A stretch of DNA of 54,508 nucleotides from Chloroflexota bacterium. GTDB taxonomy: Bacteria > Chloroflexota > Anaerolineae > Anaerolineales > DRMV01. Under the pieces are notes generated by a model. That model was not told where the DNA came from. It worked only from the letters and a program-made list of their open reading frames with translations, and made no database searches. Positions 889 through 19,172 of this stretch are shown piece after piece (the first letter of the stretch is position 1; every line of letters begins with the position of its first letter). Made by a program: the position numbers and the translations under genes. The stretch lies in the NCBI GenBank assembly GCA_011322445.1, contig DRMV01000018.1, positions 1 through 54,508 of the forward strand. The letters are read 5' to 3'.

Positions 889-2904
889 ATGAAACGCACG
901 TGGATTGTCTTGTTTGCCGTGCTGGTCGTCGCGGCGTTGGCATTAGCAGCATGCGGCCAGCAGGCCCCTCAGACCGTCGTGGTGACCCAGGTGGTCGAAA
1001 AACCCGGCGGCACAGTGGTGGTAACCCAGATTGTGGAAGCCACCCCCGCCCCCCAGCAGCCCAAGGAATTCAAGTCGCCGCACCCCGATACCCTGGTGGT
1101 GGCCACCATCGGCGACGCTGAAAGCCTGGACCCGGCGTGGGACTATGAAAGCTCGGGGATCGGCGTCATCATGAACCTGTACGATCAGCTGGTGACGTAC
1201 GACAAGAGCGACGCCACCCACTTTGTGCCCGACCTGGCAACCAAGTGGGAAATCTCCGAAGACGGCAAGACCTACACCTTCTACATCCGCAAGGGCGTGA
1301 AGTTCCACAACGGCGACACGCTCACCCCCGAAGACGTCGCTTATACCTTCCAGCGTGCGATCTTGCAGGGCGGCACGGACTCGCCGATGTGGCTGCTGAC
1401 CGAGCCCTTCTTCGGCATCGGCACCTACGACATCGCCGAGCTGGTCGACCCGACCGGCGCGCTGGATGACGACCCCGACGCCTTGAAGAAAGCCGACCCC
1501 GAGAAACTCAAGGCCGCCTGCGAGAAAATCGTCAACGCCATCACCTACGACAACGACAAAGGCACTGTGACGATGCAGCTCGCGCAGCCGTGGGGCCCCT
1601 TCCTGGCAACGATTGCCCAGGGCTGGGCTTCCATTATTGACAAGCAATGGGCGATCAAGCAAGGCGCCTGGGATGGCTCCTGCGACACCTGGCAGAATTA
1701 CTACGGCGTTGACGACTCCACCGCCCCGCTCGGCAAGGTGGAAAACGGCACTGGCCCCTACATTCTGGATCACTGGACGCCGGGTGAGGAAATCGTCCTC
1801 AAGGCGAACCCCAACTACTGGCGCGCCGAGCAGAACGTCCCGGCGTGGGACGGCGCCCCGACCGCACCTTCCATCCAGACCGTGGTGCTCAAGGTCGTGA
1901 AAGAGTGGGGAACCCGCTTCGCCATGCTGAAGGCCGGCGATGCCGACTTCGCCGATGTGCCGCGCCAGAACGTGGCTCAGGTCGACCCACTGGTTGGCGA
2001 GATCTGCGTCTGGAACGCCGACAAGAGCGACTTCGACTGCAAGCCTTCTGACAACCCCAACCAGCCGCTGCGCCTGTGGAAGGGCATGCCCACCGTCATC
2101 CGCACCGACGTCTTCTTCAACTTCAAGATCAACACCGACGGCGGCAACCCCTACATTGGCAGTGGCAAACTGGATGGCAACGGCATTCCTGCCGACTTCT
2201 TCTCCGACATCCACGTCCGCAAGGCCTTCAACTACTGCTTCGACTGGGACACCTTTATCAAAGATGCCCTCAACGGCGAAGGCGTCCAGAACGTCGGTCC
2301 GCTCATCCCCGGAATGATTGGCTACGACCCCAATGGCCCGCACTACACTTACGACAAAGACAAGTGCGTGGAAGAACTGAAGCAGGCCTGGGATGGTCAA
2401 GTGTGGGAGAAAGGTTTCCGCTTCCAGGTGGCCTACAACAGCGGCAACGTCACCCGCCAGACCGTGGCGCAGATTCTGCAGGCCGACTTCGCCGACATCG
2501 ACCCCAAGTTCGAGATCGAGGCAGTGGGTCTGCCGTGGCCGGCCTTCCTGAACGCCTATCGCGCTGGCCGCCTGCCGATGTTCATCAGCGGGTGGATTGA
2601 AGACATCCACGACCCGCACAACTGGGCGCAACCGTTCACCGTCGGCACCTACGCACGGCGGCAGAACATGCCCAAAGACATCCATGACCAGTTCCAGAAA
2701 CTGGTGAGCGAAGGCGTGGCCGAGACCGACCCGGCGAAACGCGCCGAGATCTACAAGCAACTCACCGAACTGGACTACAAATACGCGCCGGCCATCCGCC
2801 TGGCGGTGGCAACCGGGCGGCATTACGAACAGCGGTGGGTACAAGGCTGGTACTACAACCCCATCGCCCCCGCGTTCTACTATCTCTACTCTATCAAGAA
2901 GTAA
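889..2904 (+). CDS. ABC transporter substrate-binding lipoprotein, solute-binding family 5
   Basis: This is the extracytoplasmic receptor of the peptide-type ABC system. The 671-residue product has a lipoprotein signal: a Lys/Arg start, a hydrophobic stretch, and lipobox LALAAC with the lipidated Cys at about residue 22. A linker rich in Val, Thr, Pro and Gln follows, with repeated VVVTQ motifs. The mature part has family-5 features such as the ESLDPAWDYES opening and WEISEDGKTYTFYIRKGVKF. The start at 889 is preceded by GGAGGAGGAG at about 878-887. A large insertion compared with the usual 500-550 residues lies around residues 185-330. A hairpin after the stop separates it from the permease genes. 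It could bind dipeptides, oligopeptides, nickel or sugars; the sequence does not decide. Confidence 0.93.
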   Translation: MKRTWIVLFAVLVVAALALAACGQQAPQTVVVTQVVEKPGGTVVVTQIVEATPAPQQPKEFKSPHPDTLVVATIGDAESLDPAWDYESSGIGVIMNLYDQLVTYDKSDATHFVPDLATKWEISEDGKTYTFYIRKGVKFHNGDTLTPEDVAYTFQRAILQGGTDSPMWLLTEPFFGIGTYDIAELVDPTGALDDDPDALKKADPEKLKAACEKIVNAITYDNDKGTVTMQLAQPWGPFLATIAQGWASIIDKQWAIKQGAWDGSCDTWQNYYGVDDSTAPLGKVENGTGPYILDHWTPGEEIVLKANPNYWRAEQNVPAWDGAPTAPSIQTVVLKVVKEWGTRFAMLKAGDADFADVPRQNVAQVDPLVGEICVWNADKSDFDCKPSDNPNQPLRLWKGMPTVIRTDVFFNFKINTDGGNPYIGSGKLDGNGIPADFFSDIHVRKAFNYCFDWDTFIKDALNGEGVQNVGPLIPGMIGYDPNGPHYTYDKDKCVEELKQAWDGQVWEKGFRFQVAYNSGNVTRQTVAQILQADFADIDPKFEIEAVGLPWPAFLNAYRAGRLPMFISGWIEDIHDPHNWAQPFTVGTYARRQNMPKDIHDQFQKLVSEGVAETDPAKRAEIYKQLTELDYKYAPAIRLAVATGRHYEQRWVQGWYYNPIAPAFYYLYSIKK

Positions 2905-2914
2905 CCTTCTTGGC

Positions 2915-2960
2915 AAAGGGCAGGGAGCGCCTGTGCTTGCAGGCGCTCCCCCGCCCTTTT
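2915..2960 (+). terminator. Intercistronic attenuator hairpin between binding-protein and permease genes
   Basis: The arm at 2923-2933 pairs perfectly with 2940-2950 around a six-base loop. An outer arm at 2915-2921 pairs with 2953-2959, giving about 18 base pairs with one small internal bulge. The 3' arm ends in TTTT directly before the ribosome binding site of the next gene. I infer partial termination or 3'-end protection that leaves more mRNA for the binding protein than for the permeases. Confidence 0.7.
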
Positions 2961-2974
2961 GGAGGTGGATCAGG

Positions 2975-4039
2975 ATGTTCAATTACATCATGCGGCGGTT
3001 GCTGATGATTCCGCTGTTACTCTTCGGAGTCACCGTACTGATTTTCCTGATGCTGCAGTTTTTGGGGCCAACCCAGCGTTCCGCGCTTTACGTCCGCGAC
3101 ATTCCGCGCAATGAGCGCGTGCTGCAAGGCGTCATCCGCAAATACGGGCTGGACAAACCGTTTTACGTGCAATATTGGCGTTGGTTGGTCGGTGTGACCG
3201 ACGAAAAAACCGGTAAGCACGAAGGCGGCATTCTGTTCGGGCAATTTGGCTATTCGCGTACGGCCTCTGAGCCCGTGATCGAAATCATTAAGCGCCGTTT
3301 TCCGGCAACGCTCGAATTGGCTTTATGGAGTGTTCTTCCTGTGATTCTCGGCGGCGTGATTTTAGGCGTAGTGGCTGCCGTCAATCACAACAAATTCATC
3401 GACCAAATGGCACGCGTGTTCAGCATTTTGGGATGGTCGTTCCCCACGTTCGTGTTCGGCTTGTTGATGCTGATGATTTTCTACGCCGAACTCAAGTGGT
3501 TCCCCCCAGGGCGCATTTCAGACTGGGCTGACGCCGTAGTGCGTTCCCCGCAGTTTCACAATTACACCACCATGATTACCTTCGACGCCCTGCTCAACGG
3601 CCGCCTGGATGTCTTCTGGGATGCCTTCAAACACCTGATCCTCCCCATCACCACCCTCTCTTACCTCAACTGGGCCCTGCTGCTACGCGTCACCCGCTCT
3701 TCGATGCTGGAAGTGCTGCGACAAGACTACATCACCACCGCCCGGGCCAAAGGGCTGAGCGAGCGGCGCGTGATCTTCCGCCACGCCCTCCCGAATGCTC
3801 TCATGCCGGTGGTCACCATCGGCGGCATGATGGTCGTTGGCCTGCTCAACGGCGTGGTGATCACCGAAACCGTGTTCAACTACCCCGGCATGGGGAAAGC
3901 CGCAGCCGATGCTGCCCTTAACCTGGACGTCGTCACCGTGCTCGGCCTCACTTTGTTCAGCGGCACCTTGCTGATTTTCTCCAACCTGGTGGTAGACATC
4001 ATGTACGCCTACATTGACCCCCGCGTACGGCTGGAATAA
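2975..4039 (+). CDS. ABC transporter permease, DppB/OppB type
   Basis: This is the first membrane subunit of the peptide-type transporter. The 354-residue product starts MFNYIMRRLL, runs at once into a hydrophobic helix (MIPLLLFGVTVLIFLMLQFL), and has further membrane segments. The EAA loop that contacts the ATPase is ARAKGLSERRVIFRHALPNA near residues 265-285. The frame is open further upstream to 2933, but those codons lie inside the hairpin; ATG 2975 has GGAGGTG at 2961-2967, so I chose it. The next permease gene follows after about 50 bases that hold a second weaker hairpin. Confidence 0.93.
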   Translation: MFNYIMRRLLMIPLLLFGVTVLIFLMLQFLGPTQRSALYVRDIPRNERVLQGVIRKYGLDKPFYVQYWRWLVGVTDEKTGKHEGGILFGQFGYSRTASEPVIEIIKRRFPATLELALWSVLPVILGGVILGVVAAVNHNKFIDQMARVFSILGWSFPTFVFGLLMLMIFYAELKWFPPGRISDWADAVVRSPQFHNYTTMITFDALLNGRLDVFWDAFKHLILPITTLSYLNWALLLRVTRSSMLEVLRQDYITTARAKGLSERRVIFRHALPNALMPVVTIGGMMVVGLLNGVVITETVFNYPGMGKAAADAALNLDVVTVLGLTLFSGTLLIFSNLVVDIMYAYIDPRVRLE

Positions 4040-4045
4040 CCTAAC

Positions 4046-4076
4046 CAAGATAGGCCCCCCTGCACCCCCTATCTTG
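4046..4076 (+). other. Weak intercistronic inverted repeat
   Basis: Nine bases at 4046-4054 (CAAGATAGG) are the exact complement of 4068-4076, with a C-rich 13-base loop. It sits between the two permease genes, before the GAGGAG ribosome binding site. There is no U-tract, so a processing or stability element is likelier than a terminator. Confidence 0.4.
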
Positions 4077-4093
4077 ATTTACGAGGAGCAATG

Positions 4094-5110
4094 ATGGCAT
4101 CTCAAGACACGATAGCACTCAAAAGCAAAGAACCGGGACGGCTGGAGCGCCTGCTGGGCCCCGATTTTTACCGCATGTTGAAGGGGCTGCTGACCAACCC
4201 CCTTTCTCTCTCGGGGTTGGCATTACTTGGGCTGTTTTTGATTGTCGCCCTGGCTGCCCCCGTGTTGGCGCCGCCCCGTCCCAACGCTAACCCTTACCAC
4301 ATCCCGCGCGATGGCTTCAGCCCGAACCCCAAAATGCCCGGCACGGACTGGCGCGTCCGCCAGCCCCCCTTACCGTTCTGGTGGGAACCCATCATGCACA
4401 AAGACCATTGGGTGCACCTGATGGGTACAGCCAGCGGCCAATGGGATATTTATTATGGTGTCGTTTGGGGCACCCGCACCGCTTTCAAAGTCGGGCTGAT
4501 TATCACGCTTTCTGTGGCAACACTGGGAATCTTCCTCGGCTCCGTTTCGGCTTATTACGGCGGCGCCGTGGATATGGTGATCATGCGCGTCACCGACGTC
4601 TTCATGAGCTTCCCCTTCCTGCTGGCCGCGTTGACCCTTTCCGCCATCCTTGCCCCTGTGATGGGAAAGAGTCTGATACCACCATCCATTGCCTTGATTA
4701 TGTTCGGATGGATGGGCTACGCGCGCCTCATTCGTAGCGACATCCTTTCCGTCAAAGAGCGGGAATACGTTCTCGCCGCCAAAGTATTGGGCGCTTCTGA
4801 CCGCCGCATTCTGCTCAAACACATCCTCCCCAACGCCATTTACCCCACGCTGGTGGTCGCCTCGATGGATATGGGCTCGTATGTGCTCAGCTTCGCCGCC
4901 CTGAGCTTCCTGGGCGTCGGCGCCGAAGTGGGCTATGCCGACTGGGGCCAGTTGATTTCCTTCGCCCGCGATTGGATTACCGACCTGGGGCAATACTGGT
5001 TCATCGTGGTCTACCCCGGCATGGCTTTGGTGCTCTTCGTGCTGGCGTGGAACCTGGTTGGCGACGCCTTACGCGACATCTTAGACCCTCGCCTGCGCGG
5101 CAGGAAGTAG
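4094..5110 (+). CDS. ABC transporter permease, DppC/OppC type
   Basis: This is the second membrane subunit of the peptide-type transporter. The protein has a cytoplasmic N-terminus, a first membrane helix (about residues 40-57), then a long external loop rich in Pro and Trp (about 58-120). The remaining helices and the EAA loop AAKVLGASDRRILLKHILPN follow near residues 230-250. The loop before helix 2 lacks the usual GTDDLGRD sequence and reads GTASGQWDIYYGVVWGTR, a divergent form. Two ATGs stand side by side at 4091 and 4094; GAGGAG at 4083-4088 is better spaced for 4094. A strong terminator follows the stop codon, closing the operon. Confidence 0.92.
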   Translation: MASQDTIALKSKEPGRLERLLGPDFYRMLKGLLTNPLSLSGLALLGLFLIVALAAPVLAPPRPNANPYHIPRDGFSPNPKMPGTDWRVRQPPLPFWWEPIMHKDHWVHLMGTASGQWDIYYGVVWGTRTAFKVGLIITLSVATLGIFLGSVSAYYGGAVDMVIMRVTDVFMSFPFLLAALTLSAILAPVMGKSLIPPSIALIMFGWMGYARLIRSDILSVKEREYVLAAKVLGASDRRILLKHILPNAIYPTLVVASMDMGSYVLSFAALSFLGVGAEVGYADWGQLISFARDWITDLGQYWFIVVYPGMALVLFVLAWNLVGDALRDILDPRLRGRK

Positions 5111-9012: not shown

Positions 9013-10570
<1,558 letters not shown>

Positions 10571-14150: not shown

Positions 14151-14681
14151 TTATATCGGCTCGTAAACCTTCACGCGGTCAATTTTGAAAGACTGCACAG
14201 TTTCTACAAAAGAAGGCGAGGCGTGTTCGTTGAACCATTGGGCAGAGCACCAAGGATACGTTTCGGCAGTTTTTGCCAGGCCGTGCTTGACAGGGTTCTG
14301 GTTGACGTAACGAAGTCTTGCCAGATATGACCGCTGAAAGGTGATTTGGCTATCCCAATACTGAAACCATACTTTGCGCCCTGGCGTGCCGTCTTCACGG
14401 TTGAAGGCTTTGGCGGTGGTCATGTGCAATTTGCTGATAAAGCGTCGGAGTGTCGCAGGGTTATCGGGGGAATGGGCGATGAAGTGGTAATGCTCATTGA
14501 GAATAGCCCAGGCGTGGAGTTCCCAGCCGAACTCGCTTGCGATGGCGAACAAGGCGTTTTGGAACAAATCCTTGCGCTCAGGAGCAGCCAAATGGGGAGC
14601 GCGGCGATAAGTGGCCGCGGTCACCATGTAAATTCCCGGCTGGAAAGTCCAGTGGGCGGGGGCGTGAGGCCACTGTTTCAT
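14151..14681 (-). CDS. REP-associated tyrosine transposase (RAYT, Y1/HUH superfamily)
   Basis: RAYTs are single-strand DNA nickases that act on REP palindromes and are usually single-copy domesticated genes. The 176-residue product has the family core: the HUH motif as HYH in AILNEHYHFIAHS, and the Tyr-bearing helix LRYVNQNPVKHGLA. ATG 14681 is preceded on the minus strand by AAAGGAGG. The frame is open further upstream, but only through repeat DNA, so I rejected longer starts. Its first roughly 33 codons are repeated twice more upstream, each time joined to a REP-like palindrome. It lies between metH and the HMT-MetF fusion gene and interrupts what could have been one operon. Confidence 0.9.
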   Translation of the reverse strand: MKQWPHAPAHWTFQPGIYMVTAATYRRAPHLAAPERKDLFQNALFAIASEFGWELHAWAILNEHYHFIAHSPDNPATLRRFISKLHMTTAKAFNREDGTPGRKVWFQYWDSQITFQRSYLARLRYVNQNPVKHGLAKTAETYPWCSAQWFNEHASPSFVETVQSFKIDRVKVYEPI

Positions 14682-15109
14682 CGCTGCCTCCTTTGGAGTG
14701 CGGCATCGTGATGCCGCTTTCCAAAGCGGCGACTCGTCGCCGCACTCCAAAATTGCGCCGTAGCGGCCAAATGGGGAAGTCGGCGACAAGTGGCAGCGGT
14801 CACCATGTAAATTCCCGGCTGGAAAGTCCAGTGGGCGGGAGCATGAGGCCATTGTTTCATCGTAGCCTCCTTTGGAGTGCGGCATCACGATGCCGCTTTC
14901 CAAAGCGGCGACTCGTCGCCGCACTCCAAAATTGCGCCGCAGCGGCCAAATGGGGAAGTCGGCAACAAGCGGCGGCGGTCACCATGTAAATTCCCGGCTG
15001 GAAAGTCCAGTGGGCGGGAGCATGAGACCATTGTTTCATCGCAGCCTCCTTTGGAGTGCGGCATCACGATGCCGCTTTCCAAAGCGGCGACTCGTCGCCG
15101 CACTCCAAA
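14572..15109. repeat. Three-unit 179-bp tandem array of RAYT 5' end plus REP-like palindrome
   Basis: The units end at 14751, 14930 and 15109, a spacing of exactly 179 bases. Each contains about 119 bases matching the RAYT 5' end (first codons, ATG, AAAGGAGG) and a 60-base palindrome at 14692-14751, 14871-14930 and 15050-15109. The first unit overlaps the real RAYT start; the other two encode only 60-residue N-terminal fragments (starts at 14860 and 15039). The palindrome has outer arms TTTGGAGTGCGGC/GCCGCACTCCAAA and two inner hairpins either side of GCTTTCCAAAGC, a BIME-like layout. This array fills the non-coding stretch between RAYT and metH; I see no further gene there. Confidence 0.9.
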
Positions 15110-15110
15110 A

Positions 15111-18100
15111 TCAAATCGCAAAATACTTCGCCTCCGGGTGGTGCACCACAATGGCCGCGGTGGATTGCTCGGGCACTAACTGATGCGCCGCGGTGAGGCT
15201 CATGCCCAGGGCGCTTTCTGCAGGCAGCAGGCGGAACACCTTGGCGTGGTCTTCCAAGTTAGGGATGGCCGGGTAGCCCCACGAGTAGCGCTTGTCGCGG
15301 TCGGGCGGCAGGCCGAGTTCGCGGCGGATGTGGCGGTGCAGAAATTCCGCTGTGGCCTCCGCGGTTTGCACCGCAAGGCCGTGGAAGAAGTAGGCTTCGG
15401 TGTATTCGCCCGCTTCCTGCAGGGTGTCAAAGCGCGCCGTGGCTTGCTTCCCCACCGTGACCACCTGGAAGGCGACGACGTCCATCACGCCGGAATCCAC
15501 CGGGGCGAAGTAATCGGCGAGGCACAGCCCTTCGCGGCTGCGCTGGCGGGGGAAGGTGAAAATTTCCAGCACGCGCGGCTCGTCCGCTTCCACCGAGGCA
15601 GGGTCGTAAACCAGCAGGTTGTCGCCGTCGGCCTGGCACGGCCAGTAGCCGTACACCGCCTGCGGGTGAAACCAGCCTTCCCGCAGGGCCTGGCGCTGCA
15701 TTTGGGCAAGGCGGGCTTCAAATTCGGCCTGCAGTTTTTTCCACGCCTCGCCGCGGGCGTTTTTCGCGCCCCACGAAAGGCGGAAGAGGGCGCGTTTATC
15801 CAAAAGCGGGAACACGGCTTCGGGGGAGATGCTTTCCACCACCTTGGCGCCCCAAAACGGCGGTATGGGGATGTCGGGCGCTGGCGGCACGCGGCGGCGC
15901 GGGCGCGGGGCGCGCTTTTCGCCGCTGGACGCCCTTTCCTGCCCCAGTTCGCGTTTGGCTTCGTCAATCACCTGCCGGATGATGAGGTCGCGGCGGTTGG
16001 TGTCCTGCAGGGCGTCCATGATGGCAAGCCCTTCAAAGGCGTCTTTGCAGTAAAAGACGCCCGCGTCGTAGAAATGGCCGTCTTCGGTGAGCAAAATGCG
16101 GCGCCCGAAGCGGCGGTTGATGGCCGCGCCGCCGATGAGCACGGGGTAGTGCAAGCCGCGGCGGTGGAGTTCGTTGACTAAGGCGGGCATCTGTTTGCTG
16201 GTGCTGACGAGCAGCGCGCTCAGGCCGATGGCGTCGGCGTTGTGCTCTTCCGCGGCCTTGACGATGGTTTCCACCGGCACCTGCTTGCCGAGGTCAATCA
16301 CGGTGTAGCCGTTGTTGCTCAAAATGGTCTTGACCAGGTTCTTGCCGATGTCGTGGACGTCGCCGTACACGGTGGCGAGCACGATGGTGCCTTTGGAAAC
16401 GCCCTCCTGCCGCATCAGGTAGCGTTCCAGGTGGTTGACGGCCTTTTTCATCACCTCGGCGGACTGGAGCACGAAGGGCAGGATGAGTTCGCCCGCACCG
16501 AATTTGTCGCCCACTTCTTTCATCGCGGGCAGGAGGATGTCGTTGAGGATGTGGATCGCGGCTTCGTGGGTGGCGGGGGTGGCAACCACAGATTTCACAG
16601 ATTCCGCAGATTTTTCTTCTGTGAAATCTGTGTAATCTGTGTAATCTGTGGTTTTTATTTGCTGCAGCACCAAAGCATCAATATCGGCCTCAATGCCTTC
16701 CTTGTAACGATGGACAATGCGCTGGTAGAGGCGCTCTTCCAGTGGAAGGCCGGCCAGCGGGTCGCGGTGGGTGGAGGGGCGGGCTTCGCGGCCTTCGTAA
16801 AATTCAATCACCCGCTGGAGCGCGTCGGGGCGGCGGTTGAAAATCAGGTCTTCCGCCAGTTCGCGCTCTTCTTCGGGGATGTCGGCGTAGGGGGTGATTC
16901 GCGCCGGGTTCACAATTGCCATGTCCAGCCCCGCCTGCACCGCGTGGTAGAGAAAAACGCTGTTGATGACGGGGCGCGCCGCCTTGGTTAGCCCAAACGA
17001 AATGTTGCTCACGCCCAATGAGGTGAACACACCGGGCAGTTCGGCCTTGATGCGGCGGATGGCTTCCAAAGTCTCTTTGGCCGCGTCGGCGAGATCAGAG
17101 TCGCCGGTAGCCAAAGTGAAAGTGAGAGGGTCAAAGACCAAATCTTCGGGCTTCAGGCCGTGCCCGTTCACCGCGAGGTCGTACAGGCGCTTGGCAACTT
17201 CTACCTTGCGGTCGGCGGTTTTTGCCATGCCGCGCTCGTCAATGGTGAGCAACATCACCGCGGCGTTGTGCAGTTTGGCTAACCGCAGCACGCGCGAAGC
17301 CTTCTCCGGCCCGCTTTCCAAATGAGTGGAATTGAGCAGGCAGCGCCCCGGCGCGGCTTTGAGCGCGGCTTCCATCACCTCAGGCTCGGTGGTGTCAATC
17401 ACCAAAGGCACTTCAATGCCCGCGGCGGTGAGTTTGTGCACCACGGTGCGCATCAGTGCGGCCTCGTCGGGACGCTCGGTGACGGCGACGGAAATGTCCA
17501 AGGCGTGCGCGCCAGCCTCCACCTGCTGGCGGGCGAGGGCGATGATGCCGTCCCAATCTTCGGCGAGGAGCAGGCGCTTGAACTTGCGGCTGCCCTGTGC
17601 GTTGCAGCGCTCGCCGATGAGCAGGGGCGGCGGCTCCTGCCGCATGGAATACGCCCGCACGGCAGAGGCCAGCCGAGGGATGTCCAAAATCGGGCGCGCC
17701 GGGCGGCGCTTGCCGTGGACGCGTTCCACCAAGGCTTTGAGGTGCGCAGGGGTAGTGCCGCAGCAGCCGCCGACCACGCTGATGCCGTGCTTTTCCACAA
17801 ACTCGGCCAGTTGTTCGGCAAAGGGTTCAGGCTCCAAGGGGTAAACCGCCTCGCCATCCACGTTGATGGGCAAACCCGCGTTGGGGATGACGGAAATCGG
17901 CAGGGGGGAGTGGCTGCCGAGGAATTCCACCGAGGGGCGCATGTGCTCCGGGCCGGTGGAGCAGTTCATGCCGATAACGTCAATGGGCAAGCCTTCCAGA
18001 ATGGCTAAAGCGGCTTCAATGTCGGTGCCCAAGAGCATGTGGCCGGTGGTGTCCATGGTGATTTGCGCCTGAATGGGCAGCCATTCGCCGGTTTCCTCGT

Positions 18101-18662
18101 AAGCGCGCAAAATGCCGTGGACGGCGGCTTTGACTTCCAGAATGTCCTGCGAAGTTTCCAGCAGGAGCACGTCCACGCCGCCCTGAATGAGGCCAACGGC
18201 CTGCTCACGGAAGACGTCGGCCAGTTCGTCAAAGGAAATATCGGAAAGGTCGGGGTCGTCGGCGGAAGGCAGTTTGCCGGTGGGGCCGATGGAGCCGGCG
18301 ACAAAGCGGGGCTGGCCGGTTTTGGCGGCGTATTCGTCGGCCACGCGGCGGGCAAGGGAAGCCGCGGCGCGGTTGATTTCCAGCACCTTGTCGGCGAGGC
18401 CGAACTCGGCTAAGGTGATGCGGTTGGCGCGGAAGGTGTTGGTTTCAATGACATCCACGCCCACTTCAAGGAAAGCACGGTGGACACGTTCCACGGCCTG
18501 CGGGCAGGTCAGGTTGAGCATTTCGTTCAGGCCGCGGTACTTTTCGCCGCCGTAGCAGTCCACGGGCAGGTGCTGGGCTTCGAGGTTGGTGCCCATCGCG
18601 CCGTCGTAGATGAGGACGCGCTCGGCGAGGGCATCAAGGTAGCGGCGGTTGGTGTGGTTCAT
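15111..18662 (-). CDS. metH: Cobalamin-dependent methionine synthase
   Basis: MetH moves a methyl group from 5-methyl-THF to homocysteine through methylcobalamin. The 1183-residue protein has all four modules. The homocysteine domain carries zinc cysteines in GMNCSTGPEHM and VGGCCGTTPAHL. The pterin domain is at about 340-640 (ERCNAQGSRKFK). The helical cap and B12 domain has the cobalt-ligand motif DVHDIGKNL, and the C-terminal reactivation domain ends HHPEAKYFAI. Between the pterin and cap domains, near residues 666-692, a repeat element is read through as TTDYTDYTDFTEEKSAESVK. The gene lies behind a SAM-I riboswitch. No clear ribosome binding site precedes ATG 18662 because a repeat occupies the leader, so the start is slightly uncertain. 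Confidence 0.96.
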   Translation of the reverse strand: MNHTNRRYLDALAERVLIYDGAMGTNLEAQHLPVDCYGGEKYRGLNEMLNLTCPQAVERVHRAFLEVGVDVIETNTFRANRITLAEFGLADKVLEINRAAASLARRVADEYAAKTGQPRFVAGSIGPTGKLPSADDPDLSDISFDELADVFREQAVGLIQGGVDVLLLETSQDILEVKAAVHGILRAYEETGEWLPIQAQITMDTTGHMLLGTDIEAALAILEGLPIDVIGMNCSTGPEHMRPSVEFLGSHSPLPISVIPNAGLPINVDGEAVYPLEPEPFAEQLAEFVEKHGISVVGGCCGTTPAHLKALVERVHGKRRPARPILDIPRLASAVRAYSMRQEPPPLLIGERCNAQGSRKFKRLLLAEDWDGIIALARQQVEAGAHALDISVAVTERPDEAALMRTVVHKLTAAGIEVPLVIDTTEPEVMEAALKAAPGRCLLNSTHLESGPEKASRVLRLAKLHNAAVMLLTIDERGMAKTADRKVEVAKRLYDLAVNGHGLKPEDLVFDPLTFTLATGDSDLADAAKETLEAIRRIKAELPGVFTSLGVSNISFGLTKAARPVINSVFLYHAVQAGLDMAIVNPARITPYADIPEEERELAEDLIFNRRPDALQRVIEFYEGREARPSTHRDPLAGLPLEERLYQRIVHRYKEGIEADIDALVLQQIKTTDYTDYTDFTEEKSAESVKSVVATPATHEAAIHILNDILLPAMKEVGDKFGAGELILPFVLQSAEVMKKAVNHLERYLMRQEGVSKGTIVLATVYGDVHDIGKNLVKTILSNNGYTVIDLGKQVPVETIVKAAEEHNADAIGLSALLVSTSKQMPALVNELHRRGLHYPVLIGGAAINRRFGRRILLTEDGHFYDAGVFYCKDAFEGLAIMDALQDTNRRDLIIRQVIDEAKRELGQERASSGEKRAPRPRRRVPPAPDIPIPPFWGAKVVESISPEAVFPLLDKRALFRLSWGAKNARGEAWKKLQAEFEARLAQMQRQALREGWFHPQAVYGYWPCQADGDNLLVYDPASVEADEPRVLEIFTFPRQRSREGLCLADYFAPVDSGVMDVVAFQVVTVGKQATARFDTLQEAGEYTEAYFFHGLAVQTAEATAEFLHRHIRRELGLPPDRDKRYSWGYPAIPNLEDHAKVFRLLPAESALGMSLTAAHQLVPEQSTAAIVVHHPEAKYFAI
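16583..16654. repeat. ACAGATTACACAG-type palindromic repeat inserted in frame in metH
   Basis: The element begins AACCACAGATT (16583-16593) and ends AATCTGTGGTT, an exact inverted copy, with several CACAGATT units between. Its termini match those of the intergenic copy at 9013-9070. It adds about 24 codons to metH without breaking the frame, in the linker between the pterin and B12 modules. Confidence 0.85.
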
Positions 18663-18794: not shown

Positions 18795-18810
18795 GAAAGT
18801 CGTCTCAACC

Positions 18811-18922
18811 CTCATCTTCCAGGCAAAAATGCCTGCCGGAATTGGCACCTGGGCGTTTCGTTGCCGAAAGCGCCTGGTTGCCGAGGTTTCACAGGGCCGG
18901 TCCCTCCACCTCTCTGGATGAG
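18811..18922 (-). ncRNA. SAM-I (S-box) riboswitch
   Basis: The minus strand carries the S-box landmarks in order: the P1 strand CTCATCC, then AGAGAGGTGGAGGGACCGG, the CCCTGTGAAACC segment, CGGCAACC, the GGTGCCAATTCC segment, and the closing P1 strand GATGAG. The P1 halves are at plus 18916-18922 and 18811-18816. Binding of S-adenosylmethionine should stabilise P1 and let the downstream terminator form, shutting off metH when methionine is plentiful. Downstream minus-strand genes may also be covered. Confidence 0.93.
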
Positions 18923-19172
18923 GAAACATCCTATGCAATTGTTGAGCGCAAGTTTACCACGACGACGCAGGAAGGGCAAGTTTCCCAAAACGCCCCTTAC
19001 GCCGTGCCGAAGCCCCAGGGAAGAACTTCGCGAAACGACGCTTAGTCAAACCAGAACACCGCCGTGCACAAGTCCCACCACGCGGCCTGCCCCCGCACTC
19101 ACTTAGGGTGCAGGGGCAGGGTGCTCCATAAAACCGAACAGCGCCCTCCGCCTTACCACCTCAGCAAAGGCA
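18923..19172. other. Non-coding spacer upstream of metH and after the sugar ABC operon
   Basis: I see no convincing gene here. It should hold the metH promoter; a weak TAGGAT -10-like box lies near 18930 on the minus strand, with no good -35. An imperfect 12-bp hairpin at 19087-19119 (CTGCCCC arms) follows the sugar operon without a U-tract and may aid termination. Confidence 0.5.

Follow-up and report, generated by a model that had tools for sequence, protein, structure and literature searches.

The window, a stretch of 54,508 nucleotides from a Chloroflexota bacterium, carries the metH gene, preceded by a SAM riboswitch and directly followed by the gene of a REP-associated tyrosine transposase (table 1). 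The encoded protein scores above the TIGR02082 cut-off and the metH reading frame contains a short palindrome, which we assigned to class 1. A second class-1 copy, in an extended form, is located between atpG and atpD. In an Rfam scan, the SAM riboswitch was the sole match, and the palindromes corresponded to no Rfam family.

Table 1. Positions of the metH palindrome and of the associated features in the window
Feature	Position	Strand	Evidence and details
Second class-1 copy, atpG-atpD intergenic	9013..9106	.	Palindrome 9014-9069 (9013-9069), extended form
REP-associated tyrosine transposase, directly downstream of metH	14151..14924	-	NF047646, 89.7 bits (cut-off 80)
Tandem repeat of three 179-nt units containing TTTGGAGTGCGG...CCGCACTCCAAA palindromes, beside the transposase	14576..15112	.	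Direct and inverted repeats
metH, cobalamin-dependent methionine synthase, host of the insert	15111..18662	-	Pfam, TIGR02082; 1183 aa
Class-1 palindromic element	16584..16653	.	Arms 16584-16613 and 16624-16653, loop 16614-16623; inverted repeat, fold, census
Insert peptide TTDYTDYTDFTEEKSAESVKSVV	16584..16652	-	MetH residues 671-693, 23 aa; from translation
SAM riboswitch upstream of metH	18809..18924	-	Rfam RF00162, 96.6 bits

A sequence-only reading of the window had reported a palindrome at 16583-16654, read through in frame. The palindrome is real: two arms of 30 nt, 90% complementary and separated by a 10-nt loop, form a near-perfect inverted repeat of 70 bp, composed of 9-nt CACAGATTN units and with AACC...GGTT ends. 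The DNA folds at -23.7 kcal/mol compared with -6.2 for shuffled sequences (z = -8.5; 0 of 200 as good), and the RNA fold has a z-score of -7.8. The minus-strand ORF stays open throughout, and the peptide quoted in that reading is correct; the full palindrome amounts to 23 residues, and the insert includes the stretches TTDYTDYTDFTEEKSAESVK and TTDYTDYTDFTEEK. According to the domain organization of MetH, the insertion lies between the Fol and Cap/Cob domains. The alignment with the Thermus enzyme (8ssc) is interrupted between residues 664 and 702, which correspond to 8ssc residues 652 and 659. In the crystal structure of tMS, Linker II (Fol:Cap), extending from Lys649 to Asp657, was too mobile for modelling (PMC10567725). 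Similarly, insert residues 673-691 have a pLDDT below 50 in the predicted model of the window's MetH. The proposal that the site is a tolerant interdomain position agrees with both observations.

We surveyed 301 genomes of the order, of which 186 encode this MetH. In most of these relatives the insert is absent and the linker is 8-12 residues long. The MetH alignment is interrupted at this linker in about 46 of the 186, in a few cases because of contig ends. A comparison directed at relatives with equally long, unrelated and repeat-free linkers did not contradict an insertion. The linker content is diverse. Besides the class-1 element of the window, it comprises class 2 (ACCACAGAGAACACAGAA-type) in G012 and class 3 in G009 and G008, and peptides derived from C+T-rich hairpins (PSPSGRGAGGEG and similar) are found in G008, G009, G077, G085, G099, G214, G225, and G234. 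In about 17 relatives, a DUF559 domain is located in the linker between C+T-rich hairpin peptides. The linker of G003, which belongs to the same genus as the window, contains a DUF559 domain with class-3 arms followed by a class-1 right arm, CAATCTGCGAAATCTGTGGTT. The succession of a class-3/DUF559 element and a class-1 right-arm remnant indicates that one element is nested in another. The MetH linker is a hot spot, which such elements of several kinds have entered independently at least twice. Other recurrent peptides were also encountered in this linker in further species: QVDTYTSTQ (L269, L273, L275-L277), GAGASPAPT (L279, L280, L282), and ITNYQLPT (L266, L237). The repeated lengthening of the same linker within the order might suggest that the expansion is adaptive for MetH, its length being selected and the palindrome merely providing raw material. 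However, the inserts vary from about 20 to 200 residues and are unrelated in sequence between species, the predicted model gives the MetH insert no structure, and other proteins carry the same kind of insertion. We therefore judge an adaptive expansion to be very unlikely.

In the 2.63-Mb genome, the half-site ACCACAGATTNCACAGATT, with three mismatches allowed, has 103 occurrences, compared with 2 for a reversed-pattern control. These half-sites group into about 66 clusters. Most complete copies measure 47-58 bp; they are bounded by AACC...GGTT, and each of their arms consists of two or three 9-nt units. Inspection of the ORFs placed about 1 of the 66 clusters in a real coding sequence, the others being intergenic or in spurious ORFs; the metH copy thus seems to be the sole class-1 copy in a real gene of this genome. 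Read-through ORFs at C10, C37, C9, C48, and C39 were rejected as in-frame copies: they are spurious, antisense, or upstream of starts. As had been proposed, the atpG-atpD copy is of the same type as that of metH, with which it shares 22 identical nucleotides, and homology to high-copy relatives extends it to about position 9106. Within the genus, a copy is present at this site in G002 and G003 and absent in G001, G004, and G005. The number of half-sites per genome in the family is 617 in G009, 323 in G003, 252 in G002, 97 in G004, and 75 in G012, with 5-8 in G001 and G005 and 0 or 1 in all others. These swings in copy number, together with the presence or absence at one site within a genus, show that the class-1 family spread recently, as expected of mobile sequences amplified not long ago, and the idea of a mobile-like palindrome becoming protein is supported. 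Elements with GGTAATTAC ends and GGAGTGCGG palindromes were also observed in the middle of class-1 palindromes (G000:C10:57453-57726, C11:14653-14919, and C39:17738-18115).

Nearly all class-1 copies are intergenic, including one between atpG and atpD, and they form strong RNA hairpins, as would be expected of selected regulatory or structural RNA or DNA, such as terminators, mRNA stabilisers, or attenuators, of which the metH copy would be an accident. This reading is difficult to reconcile with half-site numbers ranging from 0 to more than 600 between sister species, with the missing atpG-atpD copy in three congeners, with the absence of an Rfam match, and with the nuclease gene found inside one copy. 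A regulatory origin is thus quite improbable.

This gene encodes a GxxExxY protein (C33:95111-95452) and has class-1 arms on both sides, the whole extending from 95067 to 95548. The short copies therefore have terminal inverted repeats in common with a larger gene-bearing element, as expected for MITEs, except that the partner is a nuclease and not a transposase. A second GxxExxY gene of the same genome (C48:16030-16383) lies between arms of another type. The copies at C1 and C45 have no such arms; tandem GxxExxY pairs without evident palindromic arms are found there (G000:C1:729-1459 and C45:4891-5618), the C1 pair being just upstream of a ParA-like gene. Among 46 GxxExxY loci, 39 have inward tandem arms and 27 have them on both sides. 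At random positions, the corresponding background is 7% for inward arms and 0.1% for both sides, and an outward control gave arms on both sides in 2. The inverted-repeat score of these loci also exceeds a real-DNA background (p = 2e-13). This background replaced a cross control comparing flanks between loci, which was over-strict because the arms are common to different loci. Furthermore, the nuclease subtype matches the arm type: GLLE-type nucleases are associated with GAG-type arms in 24 of 24 cases and GFLE-type nucleases with GAT-type arms in 10 of 14 (p = 2e-6), a pairing that could reflect joint descent instead of recognition. The GxxExxY protein scores 145.8 bits against TIGR04256 (cut-off 35) and matches Pfam PDDEXK_3 (PF13366). 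We found no sequence relative in the PDB. The best fold match of its predicted model (pLDDT 94.5) is 4ic1 (SSO0001, a Cas4-type nuclease; Z 9.9), which places the protein in the PD-(D/E)XK fold.

REPs, with their transposases, are well-known short palindromes, and the class-1 palindromes might likewise be REP- or MITE-like sequences that a Y1 (REP-associated) tyrosine transposase mobilizes; the nucleases would then be passengers that entered palindromes by chance. Y1 transposases are encoded by 10 of 18 genomes of the family, including that of the window, and nested elements do occur within class-1 palindromes. Yet 17 of 18 Y1 loci are devoid of class-1 half-sites, and the Y1 gene of the window goes with GGAGTGCGG palindromes, as at three orthologous loci. 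Neither the matching of nuclease subtype and arm type nor the arms on both sides at 27 of the 46 loci is predicted by the entry of a passenger, and we consider mobilization by Y1 unlikely. Class-1 arms common with the RAYT beside metH were searched for and not found. The region 14151-15112 of the window combines the transposase with a threefold tandem duplication of 179 nt carrying GGAGTGCGG palindromes, and three relatives have the same arrangement.

In the sister type, C+T-rich hairpins (CCCCTCTCCCTCCGGGAGAGGGG...GGGGTGAGGG) surround DUF559. Of its 80 best named relatives, which over-represent the MetH type, 59 are in frame inside long ORFs. Pfam recognizes both host halves intact around the domain in MetH, MetG, ValS (ValRS), HrpA, HsdR, MmeI, and others. 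In the genome of the window itself, a DUF559 nuclease lies in frame within uvrA, with PPSPPLVREGRGAGGGE palindrome peptides on either side (L105, G000:C36:20000-26000, ORF 969-4541, minus strand). At 53 of the 54 in-frame loci that could be tested, the inverted arms exceed the 95% background (p = 3e-31). The same insertions are found in isolate records of Stagnimonas, Ferriphaselus, and Methylococcus, most other genomes being MAGs. In MetH of the gammaproteobacterial isolate Stagnimonas aquatica (L313), DUF559 is inserted in frame in the other flexible linker, between Cob and Act. Many MetG proteins of Proteobacteria carry it in frame between the anticodon-binding and tRNA-binding domains (L318, L337, L341, L343, L345, L346, L349, L353, L361, and L362).

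According to the DUF559 phylogeny, whose resolution is limited by its 108 columns, the copies cluster by insertion site, with 24 site changes compared with 71.2 after shuffling. Vertical descent within the main MetH clade may contribute to this clustering. The DUF559 copy in G003 MetH groups with MetG copies (SH-aLRT 85), which indicates a separate entry. Between copies inserted in MetH, dN/dS is 0.04-0.17, with synonymous sites near saturation, and the in-frame domain is under purifying selection. The DUF559 profile matches 3hrl (5e-30) and the Vsr-like homing endonuclease I-Bth0305I (3r3p; E 0.016). Matches to toxin B-chains (E of about 0.5-0.9) were attributed to chance.

The clustering by site and the homing-type nuclease recall inteins and introns, and the inserts might be removed from the RNA or from the protein (as inteins or introns, or through bypass), leaving MetH unchanged. 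However, none of the inserts read interrupts the frame, the Pfam scan of the fused ORFs reveals DUF559 alone between host domains, short copies such as the 70 bp of the window could not accommodate a splicing domain, and several types of solo palindrome are found at the same MetH site. Excision is therefore hardly plausible. As we did not see a splicing signal, the insert peptide is probably retained in the mature MetH.

Altogether, the metH insert is likely a short, nuclease-less member of a mobile family of palindrome-ended nuclease elements, kept in frame without splicing. A full member consists of two inward arms (2-4 copies of a unit of about 9 nt starting with ACC) around a small PD-(D/E)XK GxxExxY gene, and the sister type of C+T-rich hairpin arms around a DUF559 nuclease related to Vsr-like homing endonucleases. 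This anatomy and the association of arms with nucleases are established by the comparisons above, whereas mobility driven by the nuclease is inferred. By analogy with homing, the nuclease would cut its target and the element would be copied in by repair; short copies would be mobilized in trans or left behind after loss of the gene. Such insertions can stay in frame because the arms are made of three-codon units that are stop-free in most frames. The metH copy probably persisted owing to its position in the flexible Fol:Cap linker, which would tolerate 23 disordered residues. Several observations count against mobility driven by the nuclease: in the genome of the window, the great majority of copies are solo and lack the nuclease; in G012, which is 62% complete, GxxExxY was not detected despite its 75 half-sites; and G007 has a GxxExxY gene with GAT arms and no class-1 amplification. 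No target-site duplication was recognized by eye at the flanks of the elements.

A broader proposal, to which we give about even chances, is that these are selfish elements of multiple phyla in which palindromic arms are combined with a stand-alone PD-(D/E)XK nuclease (GxxExxY or DUF559) replacing the transposase. They would invade interdomain linkers of essential proteins (MetH, MetG, ValS, HrpA, and UvrA) in frame and persist unspliced, and many anonymous short palindromes of bacteria would be their non-autonomous offspring. If true, this would assign a role to two widespread nuclease families of "unknown function", GxxExxY and DUF559, account for a broad category of bacterial palindromes that lack an explanation, and reveal a splicing-free way of life for selfish DNA inside essential proteins. 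As each nuclease subtype has its own arm sequence, what moves short bacterial palindromes becomes directly testable.

These elements share features with several known systems. Like REPs and REPtrons (RAYT), they associate high-copy short palindromes with the gene of a DNA-processing enzyme. However, this enzyme is a PD-(D/E)XK nuclease and not a Y1 transposase, copies occur in frame in genes, and the palindromes do not flank the Y1 gene at 17 of the 18 Y1 loci. DUF559 resembles I-Bth0305I (3r3p) by its profile match and by the site-specific distribution of its insertions, as expected for a homing element, but here there is no intron or intein, the ends are palindromic, and the insert stays in the host protein. 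Like inteins, the DUF559 insertions are in-frame nuclease passengers recurring at the same site of conserved host proteins; they differ by the lack of a splicing domain and of conserved borders, since Pfam shows DUF559 alone and the window insert has 23 residues, and by their location in flexible linkers instead of conserved active-site segments. Multicopy sequences of Geobacter metallireducens are also found between and within genes, but passages of the paper on them describe regulatory or unknown functions and make no link to a nuclease (PMC2700814). The closest precedent for in-frame palindromes is provided by the Rickettsia palindromic elements, or RPEs (Ogata et al. 2000, 2002; reviewed in PMC10969869). 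In both cases a short palindrome lies in frame in a protein gene and adds a peptide, RPEs being found in unrelated metabolic genes and the metH palindrome in a linker that is empty in relatives. RPEs are about 150 bp long and come from Rickettsia, and passages of the review on them do not mention a nuclease partner (PMC10969869). The elements described here are set apart by their occurrence in Chloroflexota, the 70-bp size, the arms of 9-nt units, the nuclease-bearing full members, and a low share of in-gene copies, with about 1 of 66 clusters in a real coding sequence. A literature search on GxxExxY, DUF559, TIGR04256, and COG2852 revealed no link to mobility, palindromes, or in-frame insertion. 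Set against these precedents, the metH insert is RPE-like in outcome, yet it probably belongs to a family of nuclease-bearing palindromes.
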